A stretch of DNA of 64,000 nucleotides from an uncultured SAR86 cluster bacterium (GTDB lineage Bacteria > Pseudomonadota > Gammaproteobacteria > Magnimaribacterales > AG-339-G14), in the NCBI GenBank assembly GCA_902570035.1, contig CACFWO010000001.1, positions 124,001 through 188,000 of the forward strand, given 5' to 3'. The position numbers and the translations under genes are program-made. Shown one piece after another: positions 34,002 through 63,452 of the stretch. Positions within the stretch are counted from its first letter, which is position 1. Each line of letters begins with the position of its first letter. The notes under the pieces are model-generated. The model had not been told where the DNA came from, ran no database searches, and saw only the letters and a program-made list of their open reading frames with translations.

Positions 34002-34373
<372 letters not shown>

Positions 34374-51673: not shown

Positions 51674-52748
51674 ACAATTAAAAGTAAAAACGGCCAGTTC
51701 AAATTATTCCATTTATTTTGGTAATGATTTTATTAAAAGCTTTCCTTTAAAAAAAATATCCAACTCAAAAGAGATTTTTATTATTTTTGACTCAAAAATG
51801 CCTGACTTATCAATCAGGAAAGTAAAGAGTTTCATAAGGAAATCAATGCCGAGTAAATTTGATTCCTTTAAATTTATTGCAAATGAAAAAAATAAATCTA
51901 TCGAGACATCTCAAAAAATTATAGAAAGATTAATTGATTTGAAATTCTCAAGAGATTCATTGATTGTTTCTTTTGGTGGCGGCATAACAACAGATCTCGC
52001 AGGTTTTGTAGCCTCGGTATATCTACGCGGAATTGAAGTTATGCATATTCCAACCACTCTTCTGGCCCAGGTCGATGCTTCTGTGGGTGGTAAAACAGGT
52101 GTTAACAGTAAAAAATTTAAAAATATGATTGGTGCATTTAAGCAACCTGCAGCAGTATTGATTGATACTTATTTTCTAAAATCACTGAGTAAAAGGCATC
52201 TAGCAGCAGGTTACTCAGAAATAATTAAACATGCGCTGATTGAAGATAAAAATCTGTTATCTAAATTAGATAACTTTGATCAGAATATTAAGAAGAAAGG
52301 AAACATTACCGAGTTATCTAACCTCATAAGGATATCAACAAAAATTAAGGCAAATATTGTTGAGCAAGACGAAAGAGAGAAATCAGTAAGAGCTCATCTC
52401 AACTTTGGTCATACTTTCGCACATGCCATAGAAAGCGTTCAATCTTTTAAGGGATTGAACCATGGCGAAGCAGTTGGTGTTGGAATGGTTTGTGCAGCCA
52501 AATTATCCTTATTGTTGGGCAAAATAAATTCACAAGAGTTTGATAAAATTAAGTCGTTAATTAAAAAATTCAACCTACCCACAAAGCTTCCCGCTAATTG
52601 CGAACCTGCGAAGATTCTTAAAGCCATGCAATCAGATAAAAAAAGTAAAGACGCTACTTTAAGATTCATTATTATAGATGGAATAGGAAAGGTTAAAATA
52701 GTTGAAAACGTTGACAAAGAGAAAATCTTAATTAGCTTAAAAATATAA
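51660..52748 (+). CDS. aroB: 3-dehydroquinate synthase
   Basis: AroB cyclises DAHP to 3-dehydroquinate with NAD and a divalent metal. It has 362 residues. Family marks are SFGGGITTDLAGFVAS, HIPTTLLAQVDASVGGKTG, ISTKIKANIVEQDERE and LNFGHTFAHAIE. aroG at 9-10 kb makes its substrate. A 202-base gap follows before gltB. Confidence 0.96.
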   Translation: MKTIKQLKVKTASSNYSIYFGNDFIKSFPLKKISNSKEIFIIFDSKMPDLSIRKVKSFIRKSMPSKFDSFKFIANEKNKSIETSQKIIERLIDLKFSRDSLIVSFGGGITTDLAGFVASVYLRGIEVMHIPTTLLAQVDASVGGKTGVNSKKFKNMIGAFKQPAAVLIDTYFLKSLSKRHLAAGYSEIIKHALIEDKNLLSKLDNFDQNIKKKGNITELSNLIRISTKIKANIVEQDEREKSVRAHLNFGHTFAHAIESVQSFKGLNHGEAVGVGMVCAAKLSLLLGKINSQEFDKIKSLIKKFNLPTKLPANCEPAKILKAMQSDKKSKDATLRFIIIDGIGKVKIVENVDKEKILISLKI

Positions 52749-52800: not shown

Positions 52801-52809
52801 TGGTATAAA
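52801..52809 (+). promoter_or_regulatory. Extended -10 promoter for the gltBD leader
   Basis: TGGTATAAA is a near-consensus -10 box with TGn extension. A weak -35 (TTGGTC at 52780-52785) lies 18 bases upstream. A transcript from here would start near 52815, just before the riboswitch region. A second TATAAT at 52762-52767 is an alternative. Confidence 0.4.
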
Positions 52810-52859
52810 TAATTAAGTAAGAAATTAACATTCTTCCCTGAGATCTTGGGCTTAAGATC

Positions 52860-52920
52860 AATCGTTCATCCTTGTTTGGGGACGGAAGTAGGTAAAAAAT
52901 CAAACCGAAGGAACGCATCT
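52860..52920 (+). promoter_or_regulatory. Glutamine riboswitch, glnA motif
   Basis: This leader segment carries the blocks of the glnA RNA motif: ATCGTTCATCC (52861-52871), GGACGGAAGTAGG (52880-52892) and ACCGAAGGAACGC (52904-52916). P1 forms from CGTTC (52863-52867) and GAACG (52911-52915), and AGGT pairs with ACC to close the third stem. A separate GATCTT/AAGATC hairpin lies just upstream (52842-52859). Downstream, GGAAGG (52929-52934), the likely gltB ribosome site, can pair with TCTTCC (52832-52837), giving a translational switch. The motif is known mainly from cyanobacteria and marine sequences, where it binds glutamine. It lies 31 bases before the gltB ATG. Confidence 0.85.
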
Positions 52921-52950
52921 TTCTATCAGGAAGGGTGAAGCATTGACTCG

Positions 52951-55900
52951 ATGGTAAAAGGTATAAATAAAAAATTAATAGAGCGTCCAAAAAAGAAAGG
53001 ACTTTATGATCCAGCTAGCGAGAAGGATTCTTGTGGCGTTGGCTTAGTTGCCAACATAAAAGGAATCCCTTCAAGAGAAATCATGGATGATGCCTATCTT
53101 ATCAACTCTAGAATGGATCACAGAGGAGGATGTGGTTTTGAAGAAAACACAGGAGATGGAGCTGGCATTCTTCTTGCTTTACCGGATTCTTTTTTTCAAG
53201 ATCAGGCAAAAAAAATAAATATTAATCTTCCTGATTTTGGTTCTTATGCTGTAGGTAATATTTTTCTGCCCCAGGATCAAAGAGAAAGATCTTTTTGTAA
53301 AAAAATTGTTGAACAAACTATTAAATCAGAAGGACAGAAATTTTTAGGTTGGAGAAAAGTTCCTATTAATCCTAAAAAGGCAGACGTTGGACCTGCTGCT
53401 AGAGATTGTCAGCCTGAGATAGAACAAGTTTTCGTTCAAAAATCAACCAAACTTGATCGGGAAGCTTTTGAGAGAAAACTTTACTTAATTAGAAAAATTT
53501 TCACTAAACGACTCAGATATAATGAAAATTTGAGTCAAGCCTCTTTGTTTTATGCCTGCACCCTTTCATCGAGACTGATTGCTTACAAAGGTATGCTTAC
53601 CCCAGCTCAGCTTTTCCCTTTTTTCCCAGATCTTGAAAATAAAAAATTCGAGACTCATTTGGCAATGGTTCACTCGAGATTCAGTACGAACACCTTCCCT
53701 TCTTGGGATAGAGCTCAACCCAACAGATATATGTGTCATAACGGCGAGATAAACACTTTGAAAGGAAACATGAATCAAATGTATTCTCGACAAGGTCTTG
53801 CGAGAAGTGATTATTTCGGTTCAAAAATTAATAAATTATTCCCCATAACGGAACCAGACTGTTCTGATTCAGGTTCATTTGATAATGTTCTTGAGCTGCT
53901 AATAATGTCAGGTAGAGAACTACCTGAGGCTGCCATGATGATGATTCCTGAAGCTTGGCAAAATGACAATGAAATGAGTCCAGCAAAAAAAGCCTTTTAT
54001 GAGTATTCATCATCATTTATGGAACCTTGGGATGGTCCTGCATCTATAGTTTTCACAGATGGAAATTATGTTGGAGCCGTTTTAGATAGAAATGGACTCA
54101 GACCGAGCAGATTTTATGTAACTGATGACGACAAAGTCATCATGGCTTCAGAGGTAGGAGTTCTTCCTGTTGATCAAGCAAAAGTTTTATCAAAAGGAAG
54201 GCTTCAGCCAGGAAAAATGTTTCTTATTGATTTTGAGGAAGGCAGGATGATTCCAGATGAAGAAATCAAAAACAGGGTCTCAAAAAAACTTCCCTATAAA
54301 GATTGGGTAAAAAATCAAATTATAGATATCCAAGATCTAAAAACATCCAAAACAAAATATAAAACAGACGATCTAATCTCAAGGATGCAGTCTTTCGGTT
54401 ACACCACTGAAACACTTGAGTTCATGTTGCTACCCCTTGTAACTGAGTTGAGAGATCCTCTTGGATCAATGGGAAATGATGCTGCTTTAGCATGTCTATC
54501 TGATAAACCCAGAATGATTTATGACTACTTCAAGCAACTTTTTGCTCAGATTACTAATCCAGCAATCGACTCAATAAGAGAGGAAGTAATTATGTCTCTT
54601 GAATGCCTAATTGGCCCGGAGAGTAATTTGCTCGAATCTTTAGAAGAAAATGCACATAGATTAAGATTGAAGCATCCTATTCTTTCAAATGAAGAACTAT
54701 TTAGCATAAAGAATAACAAAGATTACGGTTGGACTACTAAGACTATCGATATTACATACGAAAGAGGTAGCGGAGCCTCAGGTCTAAAGAAAGCTCTAAA
54801 AAGAATCTGCACTGAGTCAGAGGACGCAATAAAGCAAGGATATTCTTTTGTACTTTTATCTGACAGAAACCTTTCGAAAAGTAGAGTTGCTATAAGTTCA
54901 TTGCTTGCGTGTTCCTCCGTCCATCATCATTTAGTTAGAAAAGAAAAAAGAACACAATTAGGACTAATTATTGAGTCTGGCGAAGCCAGAGAGGTTCATC
55001 ATCACTGCCTACTTATCGGATATGGGGCTGATGCAATAAATCCCTACTTGGCTTTTGAAGTTTTGGAGAAATCTTTAAAAGATCAAATACTGCAAGATAA
55101 AAAATTGAGAAATACCTCAGATTTAGTTAATGCCTATAAAAAAGGAGTTGCTAAGGGTATGTTGAAGGTCATGGCCAAAATGGGAATTTCGACACTTCAA
55201 TCTTATAAAGGTGCTCAAATTTTTGAAGCGGTTGGTTTAGCTGATGAAATAATAGATTTTTGTTTCCCGGGGACTACTAGCAGAGTACAAGGGGTAAACT
55301 TTGAAGTTTTAGCTGAAGAAATAGAGAGAAGGCATGCAATAGGTTTTCCTGAATACGACCAAAATAAAGTATCTGTACTTCCTAATCCTGGAGATTTTCA
55401 TTGGCGTAACGGTGGTGATTCACACATGTGGGATCCAAAATCGATTTCCTCTTTACAACTTGCCTCTCAAGCCAATGACGAGAGTAAATATTGGGAATTC
55501 TCAAATCATGCAAATGAACAGACTACCAAAAACAGTACTTTGAGAGGCCTGATGAAATTCAAATATCCTAAAAAGGGAATTCCTTTGGATCAAGTTGAAT
55601 CTGAAAAAGAAATTGTAAAAAGGTTTGCAACCGGAGCAATGTCACTAGGCTCTATCTCTACAGAAGCTCATGAATCGCTTGCATTGGCAATGAATGAACT
55701 AGGAGGTAAATCGAATACTGGTGAAGGAGGAGAAGATCCTATTAGATTTAAACCATTAAAAGATGGGAGATCTAAAAGATCAGCAATAAAACAAGTAGCC
55801 TCTGGTAGGTTTGGTGTAACTATGTGGTACCTGACTAACTCTGACGAACTTCAGATAAAGATTGCGCAAGGTGCGAAGCCCGGAGAAGGTGGTGAACTTC

Positions 55901-57510
55901 CTGGAAAAAAAGTCGATCAATATATAGCTAAGATAAGACATTCTACGCCAGGCGTTGGACTAATAAGTCCTCCTCCTCATCATGATATCTACTCTATTGA
56001 GGACATAGCTCAATTAATACACGATCTTAAGAATGCTAACAGGAAAGCTAGAATAAGTGTGAAGCTAGTCTCTGAAATTGGAGTAGGAACTATTGCAGCT
56101 GGAGTAGTAAAAGCGAAAACAGATCATCTGGTCATCGCTGGTCACGATGGAGGAACAGGAGCCTCTCCATTAACATCGATCAAACATGCAGGCCTTCCCT
56201 GGGAGCTTGGAATTGCTGAAACACACCAAACTTTGGTGATGAATAATTTAAGATCCAGAGTGGTTCTTCAAACAGATGGCCAGTTAAAGACTGGAAGAGA
56301 TGTTGCTATAGCAGCAATCTTAGGAGCTGAGGAGTTTGGTTTCTCAACAGCACCGCTGGTTACTTTGGGGTGCATTATGATGAGAAAGTGTCACTTAAAT
56401 ACTTGCCCCGTTGGAATTGCTACTCAAGATAAAGATCTAAGAGAAAAATTTAAAGGTAAGCCAGAAAACGTTGTTAATTATCTTTTTATGGTTGCAAAAG
56501 AGCTAAGAATGATAATGGCGAAGTTAGGAATCAAAAATCTCAATGACATGATAGGAAGAGTTGACCTCCTTGAATTAGATAATGCTATCAATCATTGGAA
56601 AAAAGATGGCATTGATTTATCTAATCTTCTTACTCCTGCTGAGAAAGTATTTAAAAACACTGATGTATTTAAAACTCAAGATCAAAATCACAATCTAGAA
56701 AAATCACTTGATCTCAAGCTACTTAAAAAAATCAAGCCATCAATATTAAGTAGAGAGAAAATTACAATAAATCAGAAAATTGGGAACACAAATAGAGTCT
56801 TTGGCACCATTATCTCTAATGAGATCTCTAAAATCTGGGAAAGCAAAGGATTGCCTGAGGATACAATTCACATGAAATTAAATGGATCTGCTGGACAAAG
56901 TCTTGGTGCTTGGACTTGCAGAGGCATGACCATTGAGCTTGAAGGGGATGCCAATGACTATGTTGGTAAAGGACTTTCAGGTGGAAAAATAATCATCTAT
57001 CCGGATAAGAAAAGTAAATTTGTAGCAGAGGATAATATTATTCTTGGAAATGTTGCGCTTTATGGAGCTACAGGAGGGGAAGCATATTTCAGAGGGATAG
57101 CCGCAGAGAGATTTTGCGTAAGAAACAGTGGAGCTAAGGTTGTAGTAGAAGGTATCGGAGATCACGGATGCGAATACATGACCGGTGGAGTGGCAGTAAT
57201 TCTTGGAGATACGGGCAGAAACTTTGGTGCCGGAATGAGTGGAGGAGTTGCTTACGTTTATGATTCTAAAAACTCATTCAAAAGAAAATGCAACACCAGT
57301 ACTTTTGAGTTAGAAAAATTAGAAAATGAGAATGATCTCAAAGAGCTTAAGCAACTAATAAAAAATCATAAGAAATTTACTGGTTCAGCTGTAGCGACTA
57401 GAATCTTAAATGAATGGAATAATTCAATATCAAAATTCGTAAAAGTAATGCCTACTGATTACAAAAGAGTCATGATGGAATTAAATGAAACAAAACTTAA
57501 AGTGAGTTGA
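52951..57510 (+). CDS. gltB: Glutamate synthase (NADPH) large subunit
   Basis: GltB makes glutamate from glutamine and 2-oxoglutarate with GltD. It has 1519 residues, the normal size. After a short propeptide, Cys28 in KDSCGVGLVA is the amidotransferase nucleophile. The central and FMN parts include GEGGEDPIRF, KPGEGGELPGKKV and GHDGGTGASPLTSIKHAGLPWELGI in pieces. The cysteines of the 3Fe-4S cluster are in LGCIMMRKCHLNTCPVG. Expression is expected to respond to glutamine through the upstream riboswitch. Confidence 0.97.
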   Translation: MVKGINKKLIERPKKKGLYDPASEKDSCGVGLVANIKGIPSREIMDDAYLINSRMDHRGGCGFEENTGDGAGILLALPDSFFQDQAKKININLPDFGSYAVGNIFLPQDQRERSFCKKIVEQTIKSEGQKFLGWRKVPINPKKADVGPAARDCQPEIEQVFVQKSTKLDREAFERKLYLIRKIFTKRLRYNENLSQASLFYACTLSSRLIAYKGMLTPAQLFPFFPDLENKKFETHLAMVHSRFSTNTFPSWDRAQPNRYMCHNGEINTLKGNMNQMYSRQGLARSDYFGSKINKLFPITEPDCSDSGSFDNVLELLIMSGRELPEAAMMMIPEAWQNDNEMSPAKKAFYEYSSSFMEPWDGPASIVFTDGNYVGAVLDRNGLRPSRFYVTDDDKVIMASEVGVLPVDQAKVLSKGRLQPGKMFLIDFEEGRMIPDEEIKNRVSKKLPYKDWVKNQIIDIQDLKTSKTKYKTDDLISRMQSFGYTTETLEFMLLPLVTELRDPLGSMGNDAALACLSDKPRMIYDYFKQLFAQITNPAIDSIREEVIMSLECLIGPESNLLESLEENAHRLRLKHPILSNEELFSIKNNKDYGWTTKTIDITYERGSGASGLKKALKRICTESEDAIKQGYSFVLLSDRNLSKSRVAISSLLACSSVHHHLVRKEKRTQLGLIIESGEAREVHHHCLLIGYGADAINPYLAFEVLEKSLKDQILQDKKLRNTSDLVNAYKKGVAKGMLKVMAKMGISTLQSYKGAQIFEAVGLADEIIDFCFPGTTSRVQGVNFEVLAEEIERRHAIGFPEYDQNKVSVLPNPGDFHWRNGGDSHMWDPKSISSLQLASQANDESKYWEFSNHANEQTTKNSTLRGLMKFKYPKKGIPLDQVESEKEIVKRFATGAMSLGSISTEAHESLALAMNELGGKSNTGEGGEDPIRFKPLKDGRSKRSAIKQVASGRFGVTMWYLTNSDELQIKIAQGAKPGEGGELPGKKVDQYIAKIRHSTPGVGLISPPPHHDIYSIEDIAQLIHDLKNANRKARISVKLVSEIGVGTIAAGVVKAKTDHLVIAGHDGGTGASPLTSIKHAGLPWELGIAETHQTLVMNNLRSRVVLQTDGQLKTGRDVAIAAILGAEEFGFSTAPLVTLGCIMMRKCHLNTCPVGIATQDKDLREKFKGKPENVVNYLFMVAKELRMIMAKLGIKNLNDMIGRVDLLELDNAINHWKKDGIDLSNLLTPAEKVFKNTDVFKTQDQNHNLEKSLDLKLLKKIKPSILSREKITINQKIGNTNRVFGTIISNEISKIWESKGLPEDTIHMKLNGSAGQSLGAWTCRGMTIELEGDANDYVGKGLSGGKIIIYPDKKSKFVAEDNIILGNVALYGATGGEAYFRGIAAERFCVRNSGAKVVVEGIGDHGCEYMTGGVAVILGDTGRNFGAGMSGGVAYVYDSKNSFKRKCNTSTFELEKLENENDLKELKQLIKNHKKFTGSAVATRILNEWNNSISKFVKVMPTDYKRVMMELNETKLKVS

Positions 57511-57511
57511 G

Positions 57512-58957
57512 ATGGGAAAAGTAACTGGCTTTAAAGAATTCTCTAGAGAAGTTGAGCCTTACAGGCCAGCCAAATCAAGGGTTTTGGACTTTAAAGAAAT
57601 ATACACTGATCATGACGATAATCTCCTGAATACTCAAGCGGCTAGATGTATGAATTGTGGTGTACCCTTCTGCCAATCAGGTGAAGGCTGTCCTGTATAC
57701 AATTTAATTCCTGAGTGGAATGATTTGGTCTACAACGAGCAGTGGGAAGATGCATTTGATAGGCTTTTCAAAACGAATAATTTTCCAGAAGTTACAGGAA
57801 GAGTCTGCCCAGCAGTCTGCGAAGGGGCTTGTGTTTTAGGTATTACTGAAACTCCTGTAGCCATTAAAAATCTAGAATTTGCAATCGCTGACAAAGGAAT
57901 AAAATCTGGATGGCTTAAGCCTAAAGTTCCAGAAGTCAGAACCAATAGAAAAATAGCTATAGTCGGATCAGGTCCTGCTGGTCTTTCTGCAGCTCAACAA
58001 CTAAATAGCGTTGGCCATTCTGTTGAAGTCTACGAAAGATCTGACCGCATCGGTGGATTAATGATGTATGGAATTCCTAACATGAAACTCGATAAGTCAA
58101 TATTAGATATGAGAATTGAGATTATGGAGAAGGAAGGTATAGTTTTTCACACAAATAATGATATTGGTGCTCCGAATTCACCCTCTCTTGAAAACCTTAT
58201 CAACGAGAATGATTCTGTCCTCCTTACCACAGGGGCTACTAAACCCAGAGATCTAGCCATCCCTGGCAGAGAAGGAGATGGTGTTCACTTTGCCATGGAA
58301 TTTCTTGGCAAAAACACTAAAAGTCTATTAGACAGCAAACTCAAAAATAATAACTTTATCTCTGCTAAAGGTAAGAACGTAATTGTCATCGGTGGAGGAG
58401 ATACTGGAAACGATTGTCTCGGTACCTCATTAAGACACAAGTGCAATAGTCTTCTTAATTTTGAAATAATGCCTGAGCTGCCAAAAGATAGAGCAGATAA
58501 CAATCCTTGGCCTCTTTTTCCTAGAATACATAAAGTTGATTATGGTCATGAAGAATCAATCGAGGTATTAGGAAAAGATCCCAGGGAATATTCAATCTCT
58601 GGAAAAGAATTTTTAAGAGATGAGTCTGGAAAGTTAATAGGAATCAAAACAGTAATGGTTGATTCAGCTTTCAAAGAAATAAAAGGAACTGAAAAAACTT
58701 GGAAAGCAGATCTTATTCTTCTAGCGATGGGTTTTCTGGGGCCAGAAAACTATATCAATCAAGAAGTAGATATAGATCTCGATGAAAAATCTAATTTTAA
58801 GGCAGATCATAATATCCATAAAACCTCACATCCAAAAGTTTTTGCTGCTGGGGATTGCAGAAGAGGCCAATCACTTGTTGTTTGGGCGATAAATGAGGGA
58901 AGAGCCGCTGCGCGAGAAATTGATAAAGAATTAATGGGCTCTACTGCTCTTATTTAG
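57512..58957 (+). CDS. gltD: Glutamate synthase small subunit
   Basis: GltD passes electrons from NADPH through FAD and 4Fe-4S clusters to GltB. It has 481 residues. N-terminal cysteines ([19 protein letters not shown] and [12 protein letters not shown]) bind clusters; FAD and NADPH motifs are [15 protein letters not shown] and [10 protein letters not shown]. It lies one base after gltB, so GltB and GltD should be co-translated. It overlaps the convergent tesB end by 8 bases. Confidence 0.97.
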
Positions 58958-60716: not shown

Positions 60717-61703
60717 ATGACAATTTCAACTTCCCAAAATCTTAGCGCTACTCCAGATATTAAGGTCAGCGTTGGAAACACCTTTGGCTTTGACTCTAAT
60801 CTAGAAGTACCGGCCTTTTCTGAACCAAGTGAATACGTTCCTGCTTTTGATCCCGACTATTGTTTTGACAAAGAGACAACCCTCTCAATTCTTGCAGGAT
60901 TTTCGCATAATCGTCGAGTAATGATTCAAGGTTTGCATGGTTCTGGTAAATCAACTCACATTGAACAAGTTGCTTCTAGATTAAATTGGCCTTGTGTGAG
61001 AATTAACCTAGATAGTCATATCAGTAGATTAGACTTGCTGGGCAAAGATGCAATTGTTATTGAAGATGGAAAGCAATTAACAAAGTTTGTAGAAGGCATA
61101 CTTCCATGGGCAATACAGAATTCGGTTGCGTTAGTTTTTGATGAGTATGATGCAGGAAGACCGGATGTAATGTTTGTCATTCAAAGGGTTCTTGAAGCTG
61201 AAGGAAAGTTAACCTTGCTGGATCAAAATAGGGTTTTAACGCCTAATCCGTATTTTAGATTATTTGCAACAGCAAATACCGTAGGTTTGGGAGATAGTAC
61301 TGGACTTTATCATGGGACGCAGCAGATAAATCAAGGACAAATGGATAGATGGCAAATCGTGTCAGTTTTAAACTATTTAGATGAGGAGCTTGAGCAAAAA
61401 GTTATCCTTTCAAAAGTAAAAGATCTAGATAACAAAGAGGGAAAAGAAACTGTTCTAAATATGATTAGACTAGCTAACTTGACAAGAAAAGGCTTTGAGA
61501 ATGGGGACATATCAACATTAATGTCGCCTAGAACAGTCATTAGTTGGGCAGAAAATTATTCTATTTTTGAAGATTTGGTTAAATCATTCGAGCTGAGTTT
61601 TCTCAATAAGTCAGATGAAACTGAAAGACCAATCATTTCAGAATATTTTCAGAGATGTTTTGGTGCTGAAACCAATAGTTCCATAAGCTCTGAATCCAAT
61701 TAA
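60717..61703 (+). CDS. cobS: CobS, AAA+ subunit of cobaltochelatase type
   Basis: CobS is the AAA+ component of aerobic cobaltochelatase CobNST. It has 328 residues. Walker A is GLHGSGKST at 72-80 and Walker B is LVFDEYDAG near 138. The start EVPAFSEPSEYVPAFDPDY and the block FRLFATANTVGLGD are typical of CobS. No cobN or other cobalamin gene is in this window, so it may be a real chelatase partner encoded elsewhere or a MoxR-like metal-maturation ATPase. cobT follows 3 bases later. Confidence 0.9.
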   Translation: MTISTSQNLSATPDIKVSVGNTFGFDSNLEVPAFSEPSEYVPAFDPDYCFDKETTLSILAGFSHNRRVMIQGLHGSGKSTHIEQVASRLNWPCVRINLDSHISRLDLLGKDAIVIEDGKQLTKFVEGILPWAIQNSVALVFDEYDAGRPDVMFVIQRVLEAEGKLTLLDQNRVLTPNPYFRLFATANTVGLGDSTGLYHGTQQINQGQMDRWQIVSVLNYLDEELEQKVILSKVKDLDNKEGKETVLNMIRLANLTRKGFENGDISTLMSPRTVISWAENYSIFEDLVKSFELSFLNKSDETERPIISEYFQRCFGAETNSSISSESN

Positions 61704-61706
61704 ATT

Positions 61707-63452
61707 TTGTTAGAGAAATCTGATAAACAAACCATAAAGGATGCGCTTGCAGCATCGGCTAAAGCTATTTCTGAAGATACAGAATTGAATGTAAATTTTG
61801 GAATAGAGAACCTTAGACAAAGTTCTTTGCCAGAACCGCTTCAACCAGTTAAAAACTTTAATGATCTCAGAGCGAAGTCTGATCAAGTGGCTCTTATAAA
61901 TAAATATTCAAGTGATAATTTATTCACACATAGAGATGCAAAAGTAAATGAAATCATCAAGGACTTAGACCTTACTAGAGTCGAGCTGCTGGGCTCAAAA
62001 AAATTTCTAGGAGTTTCAAAAAACCTTGAATTTCTTTTTCGTAAAAATATTAATTCTTTGGATGCAAATGAAGACTCTTCTTCTGTAGCTATCTCGCATT
62101 GGTTGAGATCTGAACTTCTCGGACAAGAATTAGGACATCCTGATTCAAAAAAATTTGAGGATCTTTATGAGAAACTCATTTCTTTTCAGGAAAAATACTT
62201 AGGGCAATTAGAAGAGTCTTTAGAAAGCTCGTTGGACTTTTCTAAGGTCATCTTTTCTTTACTAAAAGATCTTGAAATTAGCGTGGATGAGCAACACCCT
62301 GAAGAAGAAAATGATGAGAAAAATGAAGAAGAAAATGAAGATGAGTCCAGCGAAGAAGAAAATCAGGAAGAGGAAGAAGAAACTGACTCAGAGGATGGGC
62401 AAAGTGACGAGCAGGATACTTCTATAGAAGATGAAGAAATGGAAATCGAAGAAGGAGAAATAGATGCTGATGAAGATTCATGGATTGAAAATAGATCAAA
62501 ATTAGAAGAACTTCTTAAAAAAGTTGGGGAACAAGAATATAAAGTTTACACAAAAGATTTTGATGAAGAAGTTAAAGCAGAGGAGTTATGTGACTCTGAA
62601 GAATTAGCTAGATTAAGAGGAAGATTGGATCAATTAATGGAATCCAGTAAAAATGCTATAGCGAAATTAGCTAATAGACTGCAAAGATTATTATTAGCTC
62701 AACAGAATAGATCTTGGGAATTTGACAAGGAGGAAGGTCAGCTGGATCCCAGCAAACTTCACAAAATTATCGTAGATCCTCTTACTCCACTGAGTTTCAA
62801 AATTGAAAAAGACTCAGAGTTTAAAGATACTCTAGTTTCTATTTTGGTAGATAGCTCTGGATCTATGAGAGGAAGATCAATGACTACTGCAGCGATATGT
62901 GCAGATATCATTGGCAGCACTCTTGATCGATGCAACATAAAAACAGAGATTCTTGGATTTACAACTAAGCACTGGAAAGGTGGAGACTCCAGAAAGTTAT
63001 GGTTAGAGCAAGGTAAAATCCCTAATCCAGGGCGCTTAAATGACTTGAGACACATAATCTTCAAACCTGCAGATCAAGCTTGGAGACGGGGACGAAAAAA
63101 TCTAGGACTGATGCTCAGAGAGGGGCTTTTAAAAGAGAATGTAGACGGAGAAGCATTGATGTGGGCTAAAAACAGACTAAACAAAAGACCTGAGCAAAGA
63201 AAAATATTAATGGTTATTTCAGATGGAGCCCCTGTTGATGACAGCACGCTTTCGACAAACTCTACTAATTATCTTGATACTCATCTACGAGACGTTATAA
63301 AAAAAGTAGAAACCGCATCTGAGACGGAACTAATTGCAATAGGTATCGGACATGATGTTACAAGATACTATAAAAAAGCAGTCACCATTCACAGAGCAGA
63401 AGAGTTAGGAGGAGCTATGCTTGATCAATTAACCTCACTGTTTGAAACCTGA
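61707..63452 (+). CDS. cobT: CobT, VWA-domain subunit of cobaltochelatase type
   Basis: CobT pairs with CobS. It has 581 residues from a TTG start at 61707. An acidic linker rich in Glu/Asp at 194-258 leads to a von Willebrand A domain with the MIDAS motif DSSGS at 382-386, typical of chelatase subunits. [12 protein letters not shown] follows. No ATG lies near the start. The gene order cobS-cobT is usual; the absence of cobN nearby is discussed in findings. Confidence 0.9.

Follow-up and report, generated by a model that had tools for sequence, protein, structure and literature searches.

The 5' leader of the glutamate synthase gene gltB in a SAR86 genome very probably contains a class-I glutamine riboswitch aptamer which, judged from its sequence, would sense glutamine, and there is little doubt about either the glutamine-I identity of this RNA or gltB as its target. 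In a scan of the 64-kb stretch of DNA analysed here (the window, 64,000 nucleotides) with the whole of Rfam, positions 52861-52919 of the plus strand matched RF01739, the glnA motif, with 63.1 bits against a gathering cut-off of 35 and an E-value of 1.3e-11, and the model was covered end to end (positions 1-53 of 53). A glutamine riboswitch before gltB had been proposed in a first-pass annotation on the basis of three conserved blocks of the glnA motif; the blocks were found at the positions given there, and the covariance model agrees with the proposal. The aptamer comprises stem P1 (52863-52867 with 52911-52915), P2 (52869-52873 with 52878-52882), the core segment CGGAAGTA (52883-52890) and P3 (52891-52893 with 52904-52906), and the conserved core blocks CGGAAGUA and GAAGGAACG are present around the three stems. 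No other Rfam family scored above its threshold in the window, where RF01704 (glutamine-II, or Downstream-peptide) did not reach its cut-off, and the window aptamer is the single RF01739 match at E ≤ 0.001 in the 1.14-Mb assembly.

The gene order at the locus is aroK, aroB (ending at 52748), the aptamer, gltB and gltD, where aroK, aroB and gltD were named from sequence and position. The aptamer lies 32 nt upstream of gltB (52951-57510, plus strand), a nitrogen-metabolism gene that encodes the glutamate synthase large subunit of 1519 aa with GATase_2, Glu_syn_central, Glu_synthase and GXGXG domains. The ORF of the small subunit gene gltD (57512-58957, plus strand) starts after a single base and probably belongs to the same operon. 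A PII gene said earlier to stand beside gltB is actually located about 18.5 kb away (34002-34370, minus strand), and its product is 60% identical to E. coli GlnK; the Rfam scan of the window found no such motif before glnB, as had also been noted. Downstream of the glt genes, a pair of genes at 60717-63452 encodes a CobS-like AAA ATPase and a CobT-like VWA protein.

The host, initially described as a gammaproteobacterium, is now placed in SAR86, and one gltB locus of the same family is 100% identical over 3.9 kb to AG-913-G18. The window genome belongs to genus g1, and the AG-913-G18-like genome to another genus of the same SAR86 family. Inside g1 the aptamer occupies the aroB-gltB gap in seven of nine genomes, the remaining two having no gltB match in one case and a weak, probably partial one in the other; it precedes gltB in all seven congeners with an assembled gltB leader.

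Matching stems around the conserved blocks had been claimed from the single sequence, and comparison with relatives bears this out for P2 and P3, in which pairing is kept by compensatory changes. From 110 collected aptamer sequences, two of which come from a second gammaproteobacterial order, 92 distinct SAR86 aptamers laid out on the conserved blocks formed the covariation set. Every variable pair of P2 and P3 was paired more often in this set than in any of 500 shuffles, which indicates strong covariation and not a formal probability, since the shuffles ignore relatedness. The third pair of P2 is C-G in 49 aptamers, T-A in 42 and T-G in one, and the second pair of P3 is G-C in 70, T-A in 13 and A-T in nine. 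P2 varies even within g1 (TCCTT/GGGGA, TCCCT/AGGGA and TCCTT/AAGGA), while P1 was invariant in 92/92 aptamers, gathered by a scan that allowed little P1 variation. At the level of sequence, the comparison demonstrates that the RNA has the sequence and structure features of its class and that selection acts on its stems. That the match is degenerate or a chance look-alike, with no function, is extremely improbable in view of the E-value, the invariance of the core while P2 changes compatibly inside the genus, and the position kept by the aptamer throughout g1.

The leader contains several further elements, all on the plus strand. TATAAAT (52804-52810), a possible but weak -10 element, is invariant in the seven congeneric leaders; the promoter scan detected no consensus promoter in the leader. 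The distal element ATTCTTCC (52830-52837), which is able to pair with GGAAGG in free folds, is likewise invariant in the seven congeners, where it stands beside variable bases, and having no variation it yields no covariation. Just upstream of the aptamer is the P0 hairpin GATCTT-GGGCTT-AAGATC (52842-52859), the stem of which is invariant; one loop change occurs, in congener L007. A possible anti-P1 hairpin of the ligand-free state, GAAGGA-ACGCA-TCTTTC (52907-52923), is predicted in the free folds of 7/7 congeners. Finally, in the hairpin CATCTTTCT-ATCA-GGAAGGGTG (52916-52937; -8.0 kcal/mol), CATCTTTCT (52916-52924) and GGAAGGGTG (52929-52937) form nine base pairs directly against P1 and would bury the putative Shine-Dalgarno segment GGAAGG (52929-52934), which is assigned from sequence and precedes the ATG by 16 nt, an unusually long spacing. 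The loop of this hairpin is ATCA, ATGA, AATA or AGTA in the congeners and the stem is kept. In other SAR86 genera, leaders of unrelated small genes repeat this layout with different inner stems (CATCTTTTTAAAAGGAGATG and CATCTTATTGCCAACCGGCAGGAGATG among them), making 14 distinct leader sequences in all. The outer pairs of the hairpin hardly vary in relatives, nor does P1, and both are therefore beyond the reach of covariation.

These elements are best read as translational repression by glutamine, and a gltBD leader riboswitch of this kind is the likely overall explanation of the locus. Plentiful glutamine would bind the aptamer and lock P1, after which the 3' flank CATCTTTCT could base-pair with GGAAGGGTG, the ribosome-binding segment; the resulting hairpin would stack on P1, and translation of glutamate synthase would fall. 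When glutamine is scarce, P1 would open, GAAGGA would pair with TCTTTC, and the ribosome site could be freed. In this way glutamine would feed back on the GS-GOGAT cycle via RNA. In the folds P1 tolerates the abutting hairpin but excludes the anti-P1 hairpin GAAGGA/TCTTTC, and the simplest reading is therefore that bound glutamine favours the buried site. However, the ribosome site is predicted to be buried in the free as well as the aptamer-locked state, since the distal ATTCTTCC is a further possible pairing partner, and the folds therefore do not demonstrate a switch; folding of free versus aptamer-locked leaders, meant to read the sign, gave no consistent change in ribosome-site accessibility. 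Pairing of TCTTCC (52832-52837) with GGAAGG (52929-52934) was the anti-Shine-Dalgarno interaction originally proposed. This interaction exists and does not vary within the genus, but the closer partner CATCTTTCT is better supported because the layout of the local hairpin recurs in other genera.

The sign is unproven, and repression is only somewhat favoured over activation. An ON switch, in which glutamine would raise gltB translation as in cyanobacterial gifB, for instance by keeping ATTCTTCC off GGAAGG, is rather unlikely. It would accord with the behaviour of both tested types of cyanobacterial glutamine riboswitch, which activate expression (PMC6316151), a caveat on the OFF model as well; with the use of glutamine as a substrate by glutamate synthase; and with the genus-wide invariance of ATTCTTCC, which in several congeners is paired with GGAAGG when the leader is folded freely. 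However, the hairpin next to P1 can coexist with P1 and occludes the same site, and the locked folds exchange the distal pairing for this hairpin without freeing the site. Control at the level of translation rather than transcription, as the first-pass annotation had suggested, is strongly favoured: the leader gave no terminator-like hairpin with a T run in the terminator scan, and the ribosome-site hairpin is common to many leaders. Both observations speak against an action of the aptamer on transcription or mRNA stability (attenuation, Rho access or cleavage) instead of ribosome binding. The wide spacing of GGAAGG and the ATG, a further caveat on the OFF model, weakens the ribosome-site argument, and platforms differ in other SAR86 leaders, yet such an action is quite improbable.

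Beyond the window, RF01739 was detected in 95 of 203 SAR86 genomes, with up to seven matches per genome, often in tandem, and in one of about 365 other gammaproteobacteria in an evenly drawn sample outside SAR86. GltB is encoded by 173 of the 203 genomes. Among SAR86, an aptamer before gltB was found only in g1; in other genomes for which both were listed, the coordinates of aptamers and gltB do not coincide, and neither an aptamer nor a remnant was found before gltB at 23 loci of other SAR86 genera. The targets of the SAR86 aptamers include type II and type I glutamine synthetases, a TonB-dependent receptor, a Gcw_chp outer-membrane protein, a circularly permuted ATP-grasp protein, a DUF4177-like small protein, DUF4278-like YRG-repeat proteins and several unnamed peptides of about 50 aa. 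The gltB motif is thus not an isolated oddity and belongs to an order-wide set. Series of two to three aptamers precede genes for TonB-dependent receptors and Gcw_chp outer-membrane proteins (L173, L174, L044, L302 and similar loci), an arrangement that would link glutamine sensing to uptake. In the second gammaproteobacterial order (L166, L168, L321, L342-L355), a genus with genomes of about 1 Mb, to which the single positive of the even sample belongs, has RF01739 in nine searched members, and the one genome inspected, G486, has separate aptamers before gltB and gltD. These positions, like the glutamine synthetase targets within SAR86, count in favour of the riboswitch reading of the window locus.

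In 2010 the glnA motif was linked to glutamate synthase, glutamine synthetase, PII and ammonium transporter genes, its occurrence was given as "Cyanobacteria, marine" and tandem copies were reported (PMC2864571); a survey of 2022 counted 157 doublets and 4 triplets (PMC9481103). A review of 2018 describes glutamine riboswitches as restricted to cyanobacteria, where the main targets are DUF4278 genes, with both riboswitch types activating, and the glutamine synthetase, PII and ammonium-transporter associations as seemingly confined to environmental samples (PMC6316151). These associations were previously known only from unidentified environmental DNA (PMC6316151), and SAR86 genomes now account for associations with glutamine synthetase and glutamate synthase. 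A limited literature search found no report of the motif in SAR86, which is apparently an unreported host for a known motif class. The novelty first ascribed to gltB control is reduced by the listing of glutamate synthase in 2010 (PMC2864571).

The window RNA shares with the reported RF01739 motif its blocks, the P1-P2-P3 architecture, a full-length match and the link to glutamate synthase and nitrogen genes (PMC2864571), and differs in its SAR86 host and in the P1-abutting ribosome-site hairpin, which suggests repression. The Synechocystis gifB (IF17) riboswitch belongs to the same aptamer class, and its association with DUF4278 is also seen in SAR86 relatives; however, it activates a glutamine synthetase inhibitor, whereas in the SAR86 leader glutamate synthase is the target and the opposite sign is predicted. 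RF01704 has the same reported ligand and a similar core and precedes small DUF4278 proteins in picocyanobacteria (PMC2864571, PMC6316151), but the window has RF01739 only. Phage Melnitz and its relatives, also from a streamlined marine heterotroph system, carry a riboswitch of the same aptamer class near ssrA (PMC9004378). Unlike the window aptamer it is located in the phage tmRNA region and not at a host nitrogen gene, and the examined OM43 hosts have none (PMC9004378). Should the switch act in the proposed way, RNA would be the means by which an abundant group of marine heterotrophs senses nitrogen status at GS and GOGAT. The gltB leader offers a directly testable construct, and the relatives add an extra RNA module.

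This module is found in most genomes of the window's family, in one further aptamer that RF01739 scored weakly or missed in the genome scans. A conserved module of about 80 nt, with the arrangement AGGAAAACCT-hairpin-AGCAAGTACC-hairpin-GGGAACGAGACCGA, interrupts P3 of this aptamer. Sequence comparison establishes this composite architecture of a glutamine-I aptamer with a module on P3, apparently a riboswitch undescribed so far. A dedicated model, R1, detected it in 33 of 40 family genomes (matches of at least 89 bits), and members of two other SAR86 families have it as well; the evenly drawn non-SAR86 gammaproteobacteria yielded none. The window's own genome carries a copy outside the window (L412; G000:C5:101189-101328, minus strand), and further loci are L389-L418, L369 and L388. 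Among 30 composite copies compensatory change was seen in P2, the P3 stem and the inner hairpin, in an alignment that was fitted to the model, so that the counts lean towards it; in the hand-made structure of the P3 variant, helix 5 is partly out of register. No other Rfam family covers the P3 module at the loci scanned. That the module is a second sensor forming a two-input gate is speculation.

Wherever it was read, the gene behind the composite aptamer encodes a DUF4278-like YRG protein, and these genes may be considered similar to glutamine synthetase inactivating factors. A DNA pattern detected the composite aptamer in eight viral contigs from IMG/VR, seven of them with nearly one sequence (L421-L428), whereas an earlier, stricter pattern for the P3 module had no match in viral contigs and the YRG peptide had no tblastn match in annotated phage records. 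The presence of the composite aptamer with the YRG-repeat gene in marine viral contigs suggests possible transfer of the unit between host and phage.

A broader and more tentative proposal, less likely than not, is that a glutamine-RNA regulon of SAR86, including the composite and possibly two-input riboswitch, replaces part of the usual protein control. Its members would be gltB in g1 and, elsewhere, type I and II glutamine synthetases, TonB receptors, outer-membrane proteins and small proteins. The type II glutamine synthetase gene of g1 has no RF01739 match in its genome and is followed by genes for an NtrB-like kinase and then an NtrC-like protein, and nitrogen control in g1 looks rebuilt, not simply lost. 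A Sigma54_activat search in g1 gave only weak matches (20-28 bits), located at two places in a 756-aa frame; this frame was rejected as NtrC, the two-place pattern pointing to a protein with two AAA domains (ClpA-like). The NtrC-like protein of the window's genome (L367:3069-3839, minus strand) consists of a receiver and a Fis-type HTH without the AAA+ sigma-54 domain, and a counterpart of this regulator is encoded in a congener at L368:2656-3426.
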